From a virus: 21,377 bases of DNA. The stretch lies in the IMG/VR virus record IMGVR_UViG_3300030106_005454, positions 8,290-29,666 of that record; one strand, written 5' to 3'. Numbering within the stretch: position 1 is the first letter of the stretch; each line of letters starts with the position of its first letter. The position numbers and the translations under genes were made by a program. The notes under the pieces were generated by a model. It ran no database searches and was not told the origin of the DNA. It worked only from the letters and a program-made list of their open reading frames with translations. Shown here one piece after another: positions 4,825 to 17,560 of this stretch.

Positions 4825-4930
4825 TTATTTTCTCCGATACTACTACTTTAGCAGTATTATATTTAATATTCAACCCCTGTGGTGTTGGGCCTGATTTTGG
4901 TGGGGTTGTGGTTGTTAGTTTTTTGGTCAT
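4769..4930 (-). CDS. Small basic protein, 53 residues
   Basis: I chose the ATG at 4928-4930 because it overlaps the TGA of the upstream GGRVG-box gene (ATGA). An earlier in-frame ATG at 4966 would run far into that gene. The product is basic and low in hydrophobics, beginning MTKKLTTTTPPKSGPTPQG. It overlaps the portal start by 56 nt in another frame. Short proteins with an early P-P-K-x-G-P-x-P-Q-G motif are, from memory, found next to the portal gene in related marine phages. Function is unknown. Confidence 0.6.
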   Translation of the reverse strand: MTKKLTTTTPPKSGPTPQGLNIKYNTAKVVVSEKINGRNRQSFTERKANNKRT

Positions 4931-6798
4931 AATGCACCTGGTCCATGTTCCATATAATCTTTCCATCCTATTGGACCATTTATATATTCATCTAAAGTAA
5001 TTACACCTTGATCATCATAGCCTGCCTCAAAAAAATAATTTCTCATCCACGCTTGACTAGGTGTATCTCCCTCTGCAAGACCTACTCTACCACCTCCATT
5101 AAAAGTTTTTTTAATACCCATTTCTGCTCTTTCAGGACCCATTCCAAAATAAAAATTAAGAAGTTTATCTGGATCATTTTTATAAATTTTAAATAATAAA
5201 TTCTCTATTCCTTCTCCCTTACTTTCAACAATATCCTTTAAAATATTTTCAGATAAATACCCTGGTTCAATATTCTCCATATCATTAATTTCAGAAAATC
5301 CAAGACCAAAAGCATATTTATTTAATGGAGGCATATAAGGTTCACCTGAACCTTCTGCAAGACCCACTCTACCACCTTTAGCTAATAGATAAGCTGGATA
5401 GTCTTCTCGTTTCTCCCCTTGTATTTCTAATAAATCTTTTACTGGAAGTGAGTCATCTTTTTCAAGAGCCCTTGTTTGTGCTTCTCCTGCCTGACCAAAT
5501 AATGGCATAATAGCTTTATTGAATTGTTCTTTAGAAATAATTCCTTCTCTTAAACCATCATCTAAATGTTCACTAACCATATTAAGCCAACCTCTATGTC
5601 CCATTCCGCCTCTGACTTTTTTTAAAAGATTTAAAACTTGTCCCCATTTAATTGTTTTAATTTCTTCTTCTGAAGGTTTAGCTTTTGGAAGTACGACGTC
5701 TCCTTTGTCATAACCTACCCTGCCGCCTGATGCTAGTTGCTGGGCGTATTTACCGTAGATACGGCCGCCTTCTGCTTTTTTAACAACGGGTTCCAGAAGA
5801 TCTACTACTTCATCAATTGTACTTGTCCAAGGTTTATGTATTACTTTATCTGTTGCTTTTGTAGACTTACTAGAAGCATTTATTACTTCATCCATGTGCT
5901 TTATCCAACCTGGATCGTTTTCATAAACTACATAATTACGTTTGGAATGTTGTTTTATATTTTGTTTCATTGATTGTTTTTTAAAAGTATCTGCCCATTC
6001 TTTAGCACCAGGATATTTCTTACCTTGTTTTACTGCATCATCTAATACATCCGTACCCTCATCAACAATACCTGTTATTTTTCCTTTGAATCCTGATTTT
6101 TTTAATTCTTTAATAACGGATTTAGCGTCTCCAGGCTTTATACTAAGATAATCTTTGCCTGTTTTCGCAGGTTTAGTGGCTGATTTATTTTTCATAAGAC
6201 CATGTAAAACTTTTTTAACTTTAGGAGTTAAAGCTGATATATCAAAAAAGGCTTCTCCACTGTCCCCATAATCAACATCAGAATTAAAAAGTCTGGTTCT
6301 TAATTTTACTGTAAAGTCAACTGCAGGTTTTGTAAATTTAACAAACTTACCGAGAACTGGCACAGTAGCTAAACTTCCCATAATTTTTAAGAAAGTTCTT
6401 CTATCCATACCGCCCTTATTAAAACCTACACGTCCACCTTCACTAAACATCATGCCAAGATACGGAGCTAGTGCATCATATAAATCAGAAGCATAAAAAG
6501 CTCCAGTAGATCCTTTTCCCCATGGACCCATTCCTTGCCAATATCTTCTAAGTATATCTTGAAATGATCCACCCTTATTAAAACCTACTCTGCCGCCAGC
6601 AGCGTTGGGTTTTCTAAAATAATGTCCTGTCCAATCTTCTAAAGTTTCACCAGGTCTTAAATAAGTATCTGGGTATTGTTCCATTTCTGTGGATGCATCA
6701 GCAACAGTACCTGCAAAGGTTCTAGCGTTTTGAAGTTTTAAGGATAACTCTAATAACTGATTAAAGTTTGCGCCTGGTTCATCTAAATTTCTTGCCAT
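4927..6798 (-). CDS. Multi-segment protein with repeated GGRVG boxes
   Basis: The 623-residue protein lies between TerL and portal. Unrelated-looking segments are separated by a short recurring box: GGRVGFNKGG at 68-77 and 121-130, GGRIYGKY at 344, GGRVGYDKG at 358, GGRVGLAEG at 475 and 569. Directly after the second box, residues 131-150 read MDRRTFLKIMGSLATVPVLG, which looks like a twin-arginine signal but is internal. Charged, helical segments follow, for example IKWGQVLNLLKKVRGGMGHRGWLN near 384-405. The layout suggests a polyprotein or a virion-internal protein in which boxes are cleavage or binding sites. No enzyme motif is visible. Its position implies packaging or head completion. Start ATG at 6796-6798 is 3 bp after the TerL stop. 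Confidence 0.75.
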   Translation of the reverse strand: MARNLDEPGANFNQLLELSLKLQNARTFAGTVADASTEMEQYPDTYLRPGETLEDWTGHYFRKPNAAGGRVGFNKGGSFQDILRRYWQGMGPWGKGSTGAFYASDLYDALAPYLGMMFSEGGRVGFNKGGMDRRTFLKIMGSLATVPVLGKFVKFTKPAVDFTVKLRTRLFNSDVDYGDSGEAFFDISALTPKVKKVLHGLMKNKSATKPAKTGKDYLSIKPGDAKSVIKELKKSGFKGKITGIVDEGTDVLDDAVKQGKKYPGAKEWADTFKKQSMKQNIKQHSKRNYVVYENDPGWIKHMDEVINASSKSTKATDKVIHKPWTSTIDEVVDLLEPVVKKAEGGRIYGKYAQQLASGGRVGYDKGDVVLPKAKPSEEEIKTIKWGQVLNLLKKVRGGMGHRGWLNMVSEHLDDGLREGIISKEQFNKAIMPLFGQAGEAQTRALEKDDSLPVKDLLEIQGEKREDYPAYLLAKGGRVGLAEGSGEPYMPPLNKYAFGLGFSEINDMENIEPGYLSENILKDIVESKGEGIENLLFKIYKNDPDKLLNFYFGMGPERAEMGIKKTFNGGGRVGLAEGDTPSQAWMRNYFFEAGYDDQGVITLDEYINGPIGWKDYMEHGPGAL

Positions 6799-9974: not shown

Positions 9975-9995
9975 GGCAGTTTTTATTTTTTTTAT

Positions 9996-10023
9996 GGGTG
10001 GGCCCGCCCGTCTTCAAGCCCCC
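9996..10023 (+). repeat. GC-rich dispersed repeat, copy 3
   Basis: GGGTGGGCCCGCCC (9996-10009) followed by GTCTTCAAGCCCCC. A T-rich run precedes it, as in copies 2 and 4. It is followed by the 13-nt block CTGCGACAATTTG (10045-10057), which recurs at 14848-14860, in both cases a few bases upstream of a TTGAC promoter element. Confidence 0.85.
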
Positions 10024-10061
10024 ACAGATACAACCTGAAGTTGCCTGCGACAATTTGGCTC

Positions 10062-10090
10062 TTGACATGTATGGGATATTATGTTATAGT
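10062..10090 (+). promoter_or_regulatory. Leaderless promoter of the 75-residue gene
   Basis: TTGACA (10062-10067), exactly 17 bp, TATAGT (10085-10090). The expected start point is 10097-10098, which is the A of the ATG. The spacer holds GGATATTATGTTATA, shared with the promoter at 8903. Confidence 0.85.
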
Positions 10091-10097
10091 ATAGGTT

Positions 10098-10325
10098 ATG
10101 AAAACATTTAATTTAACAGATGACCAAGTAGAAAAAATAGTTGAAGCCTTAAACAATAAAATCAATGATATCAGACTAGGTCATTCTAAGTCTTATGATA
10201 GATTAATGCATAAAATTACTAAAAACTTAGAGCAGAGAAAAAAAGACCAAGAAATAGTTGATAGAGCAGAAGAAAAAATATCAGGGTTAGAAAAAATAAT
10301 AAAGGAGATAAAAAATAATGCTTGA
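10098..10325 (+). CDS. Small coiled-coil protein, 75 residues, leaderless
   Basis: The product starts MKTFNLTDDQVEKIVEALNNKI and is almost entirely charged helix. Residues 40-75 have the heptad pattern of a coiled coil. There is no Shine-Dalgarno sequence. The ATG coincides with the expected +1 of the promoter at 10062-10090, so translation is probably leaderless. Its stop overlaps the -35 of the next promoter, which drives the structured RNA. The function is unknown. A helical dimer acting as an adaptor or anti-repressor would fit but is only a guess. Confidence 0.75.
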   Translation: MKTFNLTDDQVEKIVEALNNKINDIRLGHSKSYDRLMHKITKNLEQRKKDQEIVDRAEEKISGLEKIIKEIKNNA

Positions 10326-10350
10326 CTATTATAGGATATTCTGTTATAGT
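10322..10350 (+). promoter_or_regulatory. Promoter of the structured RNA
   Basis: TTGACT (10322-10327), 17 bp, TATAGT (10345-10350). The spacer holds GGATATTCTGTTATA, one base from the copies at 8903 and 10062. No start codon or gene follows. Transcription would begin near 10357. Confidence 0.8.
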
Positions 10351-10980
10351 GTCATTATCTATTTAAAACAACTTTAGTTCGTATTTAAATAGGTGGGACA
10401 TATACAGATTGTTAGTAGCGGGGATTGACCTAACCAACGCAATCTGTACTGATCCCTGATCTACTCACGCCTTAGAGTAGAGTTAGAGTTTCGACATTTA
10501 GTTGTGGAACTCTTTCAAAACGGCTCTAAGCGGTTTGCCTCGCTAGGCTTCCTCGCAAGAGTTGAGTGGATCAGGGATCAACGGTGGATTAGTGCACAAG
10601 TGTCCACCACTGATCCCAGATCCTATTGTTGAAGCCGAGTCTAGATCAACGGCAATAGGATCTGGGATTAGTTGTGTTGGAAATGGCGTTGGAATGTCCA
10701 GCCAAGTGAAAGCTTGTTTGCCATAAGACAACTGATCCCTGATCCATGTTTATAGGCAAGATATCAATAGCCAAATAAACTGATGCCTTTTGGATAAGCA
10801 TGGATCAGGGATCAGTTACTATTACTGCTGTAGTCTATAGATCTACTAGTGGGAAGAGTACTGATCCCTGATCCGATGTAGAACTCTGCAACAATCATGA
10901 GCATCGGATCAGTAATTCCAGATCCATTGGAGATATAGGCATTCTAGATAATAACCAACTAGCCAATGGGTCTGGAATTA

Positions 10981-11010
10981 ATCATCAAGCATCAAGCATC
11001 AAGCATCAAG
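10981..11010 (+). repeat. Heptamer tandem repeat CATCAAG
   Basis: About four copies of ATCAAGC in tandem at the 3' end of the structured RNA, just before its terminator. The same 7-bp unit with small changes (CAAGCGTC, CGCAAGC) recurs at 11037-11046, 12202-12222, 12253-12283 and, inside a gene end, 12955-13016. Confidence 0.8.
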
Positions 11011-11031
11011 CGCGCGCAGCGCGCCCTTTTT
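11010..11031 (+). terminator. Intrinsic terminator of the structured RNA
   Basis: GCGCGC (11010-11015), loop GCA, GCGCGC (11019-11024), then CC and TTTTT (11027-11031). It is a short but very stable stem with a U-tract on the plus strand only. Confidence 0.7.
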
Positions 11032-11072
11032 AGTAAAGCGTCAAGCCCTCCCCCCCATTGTTTTTTTTGTTT

Positions 11073-11100
11073 GGGTGGGCCCGCCCAGCGTCAAGCCCCC
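11073..11100 (+). repeat. GC-rich dispersed repeat, copy 4
   Basis: GGGTGGGCCCGCCC (11073-11086) plus AGCGTCAAGCCCCC, preceded by a T-run. Its last base starts a 26-nt block (11100-11125) whose exact reverse complement is at 14822-14847. Confidence 0.85.
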
Positions 11101-11149: not shown

Positions 11150-11177
11150 TTGATTTTATTATATGGGATGTTATATT
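11150..11177 (+). promoter_or_regulatory. Leaderless promoter of the Gp88-like gene
   Basis: TTGATT (11150-11155), 16 bp, TATATT (11172-11177), with TATTAT two bases further as an alternative -10. The ATG at 11185 is 7-8 nt after the -10, so +1 is at or beside the start codon. The spacer holds TGGGATGTTATATTA, a diverged form of the shared core. Confidence 0.65.
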
Positions 11178-11184
11178 ATATTAT

Positions 11185-11808
11185 ATGATCCATATATCAA
11201 AAATGACGGGTAAATTGGAGGGCTTCCAATCTATTTCAACTAATACCGTGACCAATAAATATTGCATTAAGCAAAACAGCAAAAAAGATAAAAACAATAT
11301 TTGTAATTTTTGCTATTCTCACACCATGTTGAACACTTTCAGAAAAAACATGGCGCCAGCGCTTGAAAGAAATTCTCAGGCGCTGGCGGCGAGGATCTTG
11401 CATCCTGACGGGCTGCCTACCATCAATAGCGCTTTTTTTAGATTCAACTCTCATGGTGAATTAATTAATGAGATTAATTTAATTAACTATGTAAACATAG
11501 CTATAAAAAACCCGCATTGCAATTTTGCGTTATGGTCAAAAAGATACGATATAGTCTATAAATATTTTAAGAATAACCCGAAGCCAAAAAATTTTATTCT
11601 GGTATATTCAAATCCAAAAATAAACCATATCTTTAGCAAGCCGCCTAAGTTTTTTGATAAAACTTTTAATAATGTACAGGAAGATATACACAAAGATAAA
11701 CAGAACTGTACTGGCCAAAAATGCAAAGATTGCTTATTATGTTACAAATTAAATACAACCGACACGATAGTCGAGAAAGTGAAAAGTTATGGCAAAAAGA
11801 AGGCTTAA
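11185..11808 (+). CDS. Cysteine-rich phage protein, Gp88-like
   Basis: The protein has 207 residues. Cysteines occur as C40-x2-C43 (ICNFCYS), a single C near 112 and a C-terminal cluster N-C-T-G-Q-K-C-K-D-C-L-L-C. Conserved-looking phrases are FFRFNSHGELINEINLINYVNIA and NPHCNFALWSKRYD. This pattern resembles the Gene 88 family of phage proteins first named in mycobacteriophages, whose function is unknown. The cysteine layout suggests an iron-sulfur or zinc site. There is no Shine-Dalgarno sequence and the ATG lies at the expected +1, so the message is leaderless. The next gene overlaps its end by 20 nt. The family call is from memory. Confidence 0.65.
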   Translation: MIHISKMTGKLEGFQSISTNTVTNKYCIKQNSKKDKNNICNFCYSHTMLNTFRKNMAPALERNSQALAARILHPDGLPTINSAFFRFNSHGELINEINLINYVNIAIKNPHCNFALWSKRYDIVYKYFKNNPKPKNFILVYSNPKINHIFSKPPKFFDKTFNNVQEDIHKDKQNCTGQKCKDCLLCYKLNTTDTIVEKVKSYGKKKA

Positions 11809-17002: not shown

Positions 17003-17175
17003 TTAATACTCTTCTTGTTCTGCCAAATATTATTATTAAAGACTCTAATTAATCTTGATAATTCAACTTCATACTTTACTCCATGTTTATTAGTAAACAT
17101 AACTTTGCAGTCTTCACAAGGTAGTTTGTTTCCTCTCCATAATAAAGTAATTTCTTTATTTTGCTTTTCTGTCAT
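16999..17175 (-). CDS. Small protein with CxxC, 58 residues
   Basis: The ATG at 17173-17175 lies 20 nt inside the end of the LAGLIDADG gene, and the TGA overlaps the next ATG. The product (MTEKQNKEITLLWRGNKLPC...) has C20-x2-C23 and a basic alpha/beta-like remainder. One CxxC alone cannot complete a zinc site, so dimerisation or a redox role is possible. Function is unknown. Confidence 0.6.
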   Translation of the reverse strand: MTEKQNKEITLLWRGNKLPCEDCKVMFTNKHGVKYEVELSRLIRVFNNNIWQNKKSIK

Positions 17176-17560
17176 TCTTCCACATTCTATAATATTCTAA
17201 ATCAACTATATTGCCTTCTTTTAATTTCTTTTTAGAATAGTGCGCGATAATCTGTTGAATCTTATCTAATTTTACATGAGCATAGGGCCACAATATACAA
17301 CAAACGTGAAATGCATCTCTAAAGCTGCATCTCCAGCGCCATTGCATCTTATGTCCTGGTCTTGGTTTTTTTCTTAAAGTGCCACAACCTAAAACTTCTT
17401 TTAGCCAGATTAAAACTGATTGATCTGTCATAGAAATTTCCATAACAATGCGCCAACAATCATATGTTCCAGTTTTCTTTTTTTCTTTATATTTTTTGTA
17501 AGTGATACTACCTTCACCATCAAAGAGTCCTGCTATGTAGGCTGCGTCTACCTCATTCAT
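17156..17560 (-). CDS. LAGLIDADG-type homing endonuclease, single motif
   Basis: The protein has 134 residues. Residues 7-19 (A-Y-I-A-G-L-F-D-G-E-G-S-I) are a clear LAGLIDADG helix with the catalytic acid (here D-G-E-G). A basic beta-rich part follows (TLRKKPRPGHKMQWRWRC), then helices. Single-motif members act as homodimers and cut a long DNA site, spreading their gene by homing. It is free-standing, with no intron or intein sequence around it, and overlaps its neighbours by 4 and 20 nt, so it is well integrated in the operon and may have been domesticated. Confidence 0.85.
   Translation of the reverse strand: MNEVDAAYIAGLFDGEGSITYKKYKEKKKTGTYDCWRIVMEISMTDQSVLIWLKEVLGCGTLRKKPRPGHKMQWRWRCSFRDAFHVCCILWPYAHVKLDKIQQIIAHYSKKKLKEGNIVDLEYYRMWKNDRKAK

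Follow-up and report, generated by a model that had tools for sequence, protein, structure and literature searches.

The window analysed here is a 21,377-nucleotide stretch of a virus record of 29,666 bases (IMG/VR IMGVR_UViG_3300030106_005454). It encodes a TerL that shares 74% identity with its counterpart in HTVC027P, a phage of SAR11, and a portal of the SU10 type. There is no tRNA gene in the window. A 623-aa protein encoded beside TerL (4927–6798, minus strand) has repeated GGRVGFNKGG-like motifs and no match in Pfam or PHROG. Another minus-strand ORF, at 17156–17560, contains AGLFDGEGS, a motif of the kind typically seen in LAGLIDADG homing endonucleases. It has relatives in 17 of the array-bearing loci described below, the window counted. 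Between a 75-aa ORF (10098–10325) and the GP88 gene (11185–11808) lies the feature studied here, which probably encodes a large structured plus-strand RNA. The 75-aa ORF had no match in Pfam or PHROG; relatives occur in L007 (58%) and L040 (62%), both array-bearing. Three related promoter-like 30-mers (TTGACA..TATGGGATATTATGTTATAGT type; 10061–10090, 10321–10350 and 11153–11182) precede the 75-aa gene, the RNA and the GP88 gene, respectively. A 43-nt direct repeat (9981–10023 and 11058–11100; 84% identical; TTTT...GGGTGGGCCCGCCC...TTCAAGCCCCC type) brackets the stretch with the 75-aa ORF and the RNA. The GGGTGGGCCCGCCC part is also found 3' of the arrays in L016 and L206. Possibly, the repeat is a cassette boundary or a bidirectional terminator.

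An earlier note, made from the window sequence alone, placed a structured RNA at 10357–11031. These coordinates are correct. The promoter and the parts of the RNA are as follows.

10322–10350, plus strand: promoter of sigma-70 type, TTGACT-17-TATAGT (10/12 consensus), expected start near 10357
10357–10394, plus strand: 5' leader hairpin, from the MFE fold
10395–10449, plus strand: 5' element GGGACA and first variable hairpin P2 (10403–10448), the counterpart of GGGACAACUUCUGGUUGU...ACAACCAGAA in relatives
10450–10580, plus strand: module Ma, a hairpin with outer arms TGATCCCTGATCT / GGATCAGGGATCA and inner hairpins
10581–10610, plus strand: spacer module sa, a hairpin in the MFE fold with loop palindrome GTGCAC (10592–10597)
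10605–10676, plus strand: module Mb, a hairpin with loop palindrome TCTAGA (10640–10645)
10662–10741, plus strand: spacer module s18, branched, containing the hairpin UGGA-AUG-UCCA and, on a covarying stem, a GAAA tetraloop (10708–10711) that is invariant
10730–10817, plus strand: module Mc, a hairpin with core 10747–10800 and palindrome GATATC (10760–10765)
10815–10861, plus strand: spacer module sc, 83–86% identical in L044 (86%), L119 and L059
10862–10911, plus strand: module Md (cluster M42), 30-nt core 100% identical in L108 in another context
10907–10986, plus strand: module Me (cluster M45), a hairpin with loop palindrome TCTAGA (10943–10948)
11010–11034, plus strand: intrinsic terminator GCGCGC-GCA-GCGCGC and T-run, from a terminator scan

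As the note had proposed, a promoter (TTGACT-17-TATAGT, 10322–10350) and a terminator (11010–11024, with T-run) enclose the RNA, scans alone being weak evidence for such signals. Relatives have TTGACA-17-TATATT at the position matching the promoter and, at the equivalent place, a leader hairpin of different sequence. A near-identical terminator lies 3' of the L206 array. The view that no credible gene lies inside also holds; the sole ORF of at least 60 aa is a 62-aa frame on the minus strand. For 10350–11035, the MFE of the plus strand is −272.9 kcal/mol, compared with −183.3 ± 9.1 for dinucleotide shuffles (z −9.84). The minus strand gives −242.6 (z −7.67). In six related arrays, the plus-strand RNA likewise folds better than the minus-strand RNA. 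The MFE fold of the window RNA has 195 Watson-Crick and 18 G-U pairs. The long stems described previously are present, at 10450–10467/10563–10580, 10605–10628/10653–10676, 10730–10766/10781–10817 and 10907–10930/10963–10986.

Scanning the whole window with Rfam release 15 (cmscan, gathering threshold) gave 0 matches, and the same was true for 10 related loci (66 kb). Hence GOLLD, ROOL, OLE and HEARO, the families against which a check had been advised, match neither. A permissive scan of the window RNA returned sub-threshold matches only, nearly all to miRNA hairpin models. Blastn of the window RNA against 50,697 phage records found no real match; blastn of the 5' element with a common insert also found none.

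Relatives were found by pattern. A gapped two-arm pattern led to 17 IMG/VR loci, in which a shared 5' element, GGGACAACTTCTGGTTGT...ACAACCAGAACTGATCCC, was seen. Searching with this element returned at least 120 stretches. A second branch, with arms CTTGAGCCCTG / CTGGGGTCAAG, comprises at least 120 stretches. Retrieval relied on exact matches to the arms and the 5' element, so the conservation of these parts themselves is partly ascertainment. Statements about cores, orientation, covariation and palindromes are independent of this. Relatives are present in about 240 or more IMG/VR contigs and in HTVC027P, usually at the same position, next to TerL and GP88. The 5' element was not found in GTDB genomes. 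The arm pattern has a single GTDB match, L184 (KB911123.1), a Flavobacterium single-cell scaffold whose array is of the HTVC027P type and which is probably a phage contig binned with the cell.

The earlier note had put the RNA in an accessory region. It is not a random spot of that kind; relatives occupy a conserved syntenic place. Among the 127 loci listed, the same divergent gene lies ~120 bp upstream of the array in 99, and GP88 lies ~600 bp downstream, on the same strand as the RNA, in 97. In HTVC027P, the array RNA (L161 4198–4745 complement; MN698241.1 17671–18218) sits between the syntenic neighbours gp35 and gp33 (GP88). This copy was reached solely via TerL and synteny. We considered the divergent neighbour as a protein partner of the RNA. 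The candidate was rejected: the protein has no PDB-like fold (AlphaFold pLDDT 80; best PDB match E 0.6) and its relatives are all uncharacterised viral proteins.

The arrays follow a common grammar. Briefly, a strong promoter is followed by the 5' leader hairpin, GGGACAAC, the variable hairpin P2 (closed by UUCUGGUUGU/ACAACCAGAA) and then a series of modules of two alternating kinds. The 'M' modules have CUGAUCCCUG...CUGGGAUCAG as closing arms, and the 's' modules lie between them. Hairpins and spacers measure ~30–130 nt between universal arms. The arms come in two dialects, CUGAUCCCUG/CUGGGAUCAG and CUUGAGCCCUG/CUGGGGUCAAG, that are never mixed; among the loci listed, 0 of 117 with dialect 2 have a dialect-1 hairpin and 0 of 115 show the reverse. 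All M modules start with the same arm and end with its near-complement, so two pairing partners are conceivable for each arm. The register of pairing may be set by GGGACAAC, the first arm, which is imperfect. The outer stem of an M hairpin is ~17 bp on average and a U.U mismatch recurs (170 U.U cells in 206 distinct M stems); fully paired versions occur in the window. At their 3' ends, many arrays run into CAAGCTTCAAGC repeats and then the next promoter. CATCAAG / CAAGCTT(C) repeats, followed by a promoter (CAAGCTTGACA), also lie 3' of many arrays (window 10985–11015; L011 1190–1270; L016; L111). In L012, a second array without the 5' element (4978–5339) is found directly 3' of a small ORF, with a complete array on the opposite strand. 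To judge from this locus, arrays may sit in mRNA tails too.

Two alignments were used to assess selection on pairing. The 5' element is present in 127 arrays. In alignment A1, a class of P2 hairpins covaries. Among 36 distinct first hairpins, 99.6% of cells are paired. One pair occurs as A-U 21/G-C 15 and another as A-U 13/C-G 13/G-C 7/U-A 3, all four Watson-Crick types with no break. The covariation score is 0.253, compared with 0.114 for shuffled alignments (0/500 reach the observed score) and at most 0.063 for slid ones. Alignment A4 represents s18 of the window. Its 12 distinct rows have 100% of cells paired, with 22 two-sided changes in 6 pairs, and score 0.348 against 0.168 shuffled (0/500) and at most 0.139 slid. 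The GAAA tetraloop of s18 is invariant, and the stem below it reads CGGA/UCCG, CAGA/UCUG, CGAA/UUCG or CAAG/CUUG. Covariation in homologues, proposed earlier as a check, is hence above both controls in A1 and A4. The outer stems of M modules have 115 G.T and 16 A.C cells, and those of s modules 26 and 6. The M-module counts support, for the family, the argument for plus-strand selection that had been drawn from G-U pairs in the window. An excess of G.T over A.C would also suit a strand-specific ssDNA hairpin. Comparison of homologues shows a structured RNA under selection on one strand. The note's claim of a structured, probably undescribed plus-strand RNA agrees with the covariation in relatives and with the lack of an Rfam match at the gathering threshold.

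These data bear on whether the locus acts as DNA. The alternating inverted repeats could be sites of recombination, replication or packaging, similar to attC sites or shufflons, with the RNA incidental. Such repeats with variable inserts, a place near terminase genes and mosaicism itself would all suit this explanation. However, it does not account for G-U pairs on one strand with compensatory changes, an invariant GAAA tetraloop on a covarying stem, or a promoter before and a terminator after the array. Furthermore, modules are never inverted and the arms do not fit attC R sites. We consider a DNA element very unlikely.

Mosaicism was analysed using the 127 listed arrays and the window, from which 243 M and 139 s modules were taken. 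They form 156 M and 85 s clusters in 114 distinct architectures. All but one of the clusters found in more than one array (55/56) have more than one context. Homologous modules share the same orientation without exception (same versus inverted, 154:0 for inner and 147:0 for spacer pairs). Shufflon-type inversion was rejected, with 0 cases. Phages whose GP88 or divergent neighbour protein is only 42–60% identical have modules in common that are at least 95% identical. Hence, modules move between lineages. Identical modules recur in differing orders, and 42 of the 241 dialect-1 clusters have dialect-2 relatives. Exchange is also nested. The two sub-hairpins of the s0 module occur in 26 combinations, and the Me and s18 cores are found on different arms, at M as well as s positions.

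On sequence comparison, the window RNA is itself a mosaic, with at least 6 parts whose best relatives are each in different phages. In P2, 36 nt are identical in L212. Relatives of s18 occur in 15 other loci, with 62 nt identical in L147. The Mc core (54 nt) is 100% identical in L206, where the arms around it belong to the other dialect. The Me core is present in 10 other loci on at least 3 arm types, and is 97.6% identical in L183 and others. For the Ma core, no relative was found. The earlier note had seen that the stem arms are related, and they are alike. It had explained this by duplication of one hairpin, but the arms are universal connectors and the cores are mutually unrelated and from different phages. 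With only the arms in common, and with cores that are modules swapped between phages, the hairpins did not arise by divergence of duplicates. Neither module exchange between phages nor the conservation of palindromes is visible from a single sequence. We know of no other ncRNA gene that evolves by cassette exchange between universal arms.

Most loci are metagenomic, and shared stretches of 60–100 nt can mislead assemblers. The mosaics might then be assembly artefacts across repeated arms and common modules. The arms, at 10–13 nt, are nevertheless below usual k-mers, and the same architectures appear in contigs of different metagenomes (L072/L079/L093, L039/L068 and L029/L058). In HTVC027P, a cultured isolate, the array is a mosaic drawn from the common module pool, which contradicts an artefact. 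We regard this explanation as extremely improbable.

The strongest rival explanation is a processed precursor. The long stems would be RNase III sites, and the array would be cut into independent small hairpin RNAs acting as sRNAs, decoys or inhibitors of host or defence proteins. Module exchange would be exchange of independent effectors. Consistent with this, each module is a self-contained hairpin with a closure of ~17 bp on average, and modules occur in any order and number and are swapped singly. Conversely, the spacers are as structured and exchanged as the M modules, arms are uniform within an array, with dialects kept apart, and most outer stems have the recurrent U.U mismatch. A simple precursor would need none of these features. 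Palindromes would be left unexplained. On balance, processing appears rather unlikely.

The palindromes are widespread. Those in the hairpin cores of the window are GTGCAC, TCTAGA, GATATC and TCTAGA. Across 409 independent core families of both dialects, 289 have a palindromic hexamer (175.9 ± 9.5 expected) and 151 have an 8-nt palindrome (54.7 ± 6.8 expected). Almost every possible palindromic hexamer (58/64) is in use. The second sub-hairpin of s0 contains one in 20 of 23 variants, compared with 6.6 expected and a maximum of 14 in 1000 shuffles, and uses 10 different hexamers to do so. The first sub-hairpin has no excess (2 versus 5.5 expected).

Short self-complementary loops of hairpins were examined as a cause. 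Observed/expected ratios for inverted 3-nt arms are 1.73 at gap 0, 0.69 at gap 1, 1.53 at gap 2 and 0.98 at gap 3. Gap 0 is thus enriched (z 12.2 and 14.7), gap 1 is depleted and gap 3 has no excess. Arms with gap 0 are unable to form a hairpin, and the even-odd pattern is the one expected of perfect dyads. The gap test rejects this cause. Intramolecular loop-loop pairing was also rejected; only 4 of 447 loop pairs within arrays are complementary (permuted mean 1.5), and the modules of an array do not tend to have the same palindrome. The number of palindromes matched between modules of a single RNA is 13, compared with 12.6 expected. Hence, pairing between molecules is favoured. The enrichment of palindromes inside predicted closed loops (at least 5 bp) is modest, 11.2% versus 6.0%. 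With that modest enrichment, the loops stay palindromic while their sequence changes, as in homo-oligomeric ornate RNAs. The constraint appears to be self-complementarity of the module, whatever its sequence. This fits, rather than proves, homotypic kissing, in which the same loop of two RNA copies pairs. Alternatively, the palindromes could have arisen by mutation at the tips of hairpins.

We compared the array RNA with known systems. Integron attC arrays and shufflons also have variable inserts between conserved inverted arms that are reshuffled between genomes. In the array RNA, by contrast, orientation is fixed, RNA pairing is selected, the arms are unrelated to R sites and no recombinase was identified. 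The attC R'/R'' consensus is GTTRRRY / RYYYAAC at element ends; the arrays end in CTGATCCC / GGGATCAG or CTTGAGCCC / GGGGTCAAG, which differ from it. Type III toxin-antitoxin RNAs of the ToxI type share the sequence of promoter, array of repeated structured units and terminator. Those units are near-identical tandem repeats, whereas cores within an array are unrelated. Among neighbours scanned with Pfam, there was no ToxN-like toxin; GP88 was seen. Nor is this a CRISPR array, as the arms alternate as inverted repeats (ABAB) and the 'spacers' are structured and conserved. Dimer signals of the HIV-1 DIS type are self-complementary hexamers in an apical loop, conserved as palindromes rather than as sequence. 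The array RNA differs in having several different palindromes per RNA, in being a phage ncRNA and in its exchangeable modules.

The resemblance to GOLLD and ROOL suggested earlier holds in kind, these being large phage RNAs with signs of kissing-loop self-association, but not as membership, since neither Rfam model matches. GOLLD is, like the array RNA, a large ornate phage RNA of unknown role, and forms a homo-oligomer through kissing loops with palindrome-switching covariation (PMC12286853). However, a single 3' domain is conserved in GOLLD, which is not known to be put together from modules that can be exchanged, and we found no motif common to the two RNAs. ROOL is of similar length (~660 nt), is of phage or prophage origin and assembles from RNA only, also with kissing loops (PMC12286853). 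It has one conserved architecture, whereas that of the array RNA differs in nearly every phage. Palindrome switching in loops was the argument for intermolecular kissing in GOLLD and OLE (PMC12286853). In a literature search that left out most preprints and subscription journals, no paper on the array RNA was found, and it matches no described system known to us or found there.

Our best reading is that the locus encodes a modular, homo-oligomerising phage RNA, whose transcription, assembly and role we infer. We give this a probability of about 0.6. The RNA would belong to an undescribed superfamily of HTVC027P-like (SAR11) phages. Its build is modular, with universal arms linking hairpin modules that can be exchanged. 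As sequence comparison shows, recombination has swapped modules between phages while pairing, orientation and arm dialect were kept. The self-complementary hexamers seen in many modules would allow two RNA copies to pair loop to loop, and the conserved GAAA tetraloop may add tertiary contacts. RNA copies would thus build a homo-oligomeric or network-like body, perhaps a cage, mesh or condensate, comparable to GOLLD and ROOL cages. Speculatively, this body could form in early to middle infection. The weakest steps concern its use. It might be a scaffold, or a sink that takes up ribosomes, defence proteins or other host factors, and module swapping might renew its surface in an arms race or keep assembly specific to the phage's own RNA.

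Some published observations on HTVC027P touch on this. A fraction of infected cells lack detectable ribosomes (PMC11066056); a link to the array RNA is speculation. The two genes downstream of the array RNA, gp33 and gp34, form an extra temporal cluster with high expression 6–9 h post infection (PMC12753301). As a hint on expression of the RNA this is only suggestive, and the timing could stem from the genes' own promoter, as there may be one at a TTGACA box 3' of the RNA. The infection transcriptome paper (PMC12753301) does not mention intergenic or noncoding RNA, and neither does a pelagiphage genome paper.

Alternatively, the array could be a counter-defence RNA. Each module of a combinatorial aptamer set would occupy a different factor of the host or of a rival phage, self-pairing would only raise avidity and an arms race would have produced the module diversity. 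In support, small modules are exchanged horizontally while the frame stays conserved, which would resemble other arms-race loci. However, there is no known target, and diversity alone is insufficient to show an arms race. We judge this explanation unlikely. We also tentatively raise the possibility of a combinatorial system. Phages would share a pool of hundreds of self-pairing modules, swapped as cassettes between the universal arms, with lineage-specific dialects, and each would make its own self-recognising RNA body for use in SAR11 takeover or in competition with defences or rival phages.

There are few large ornate phage RNAs, and what they do is an open question. Here, a new superfamily is abundant in ocean phages, and SAR11 are among Earth's most abundant bacteria. 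Expression can be checked at once, as one member is in HTVC027P, a cultured SAR11 phage with published infection RNA-seq (PRJNA1253180). The superfamily provides natural domain-swap and loop-recoding experiments. It is also strong comparative evidence of selection on phage RNAs to pair with their own copies. If true, the combinatorial reading would make these arrays an equivalent, in RNA, of the diversity seen in modular tail fibres or integrons.
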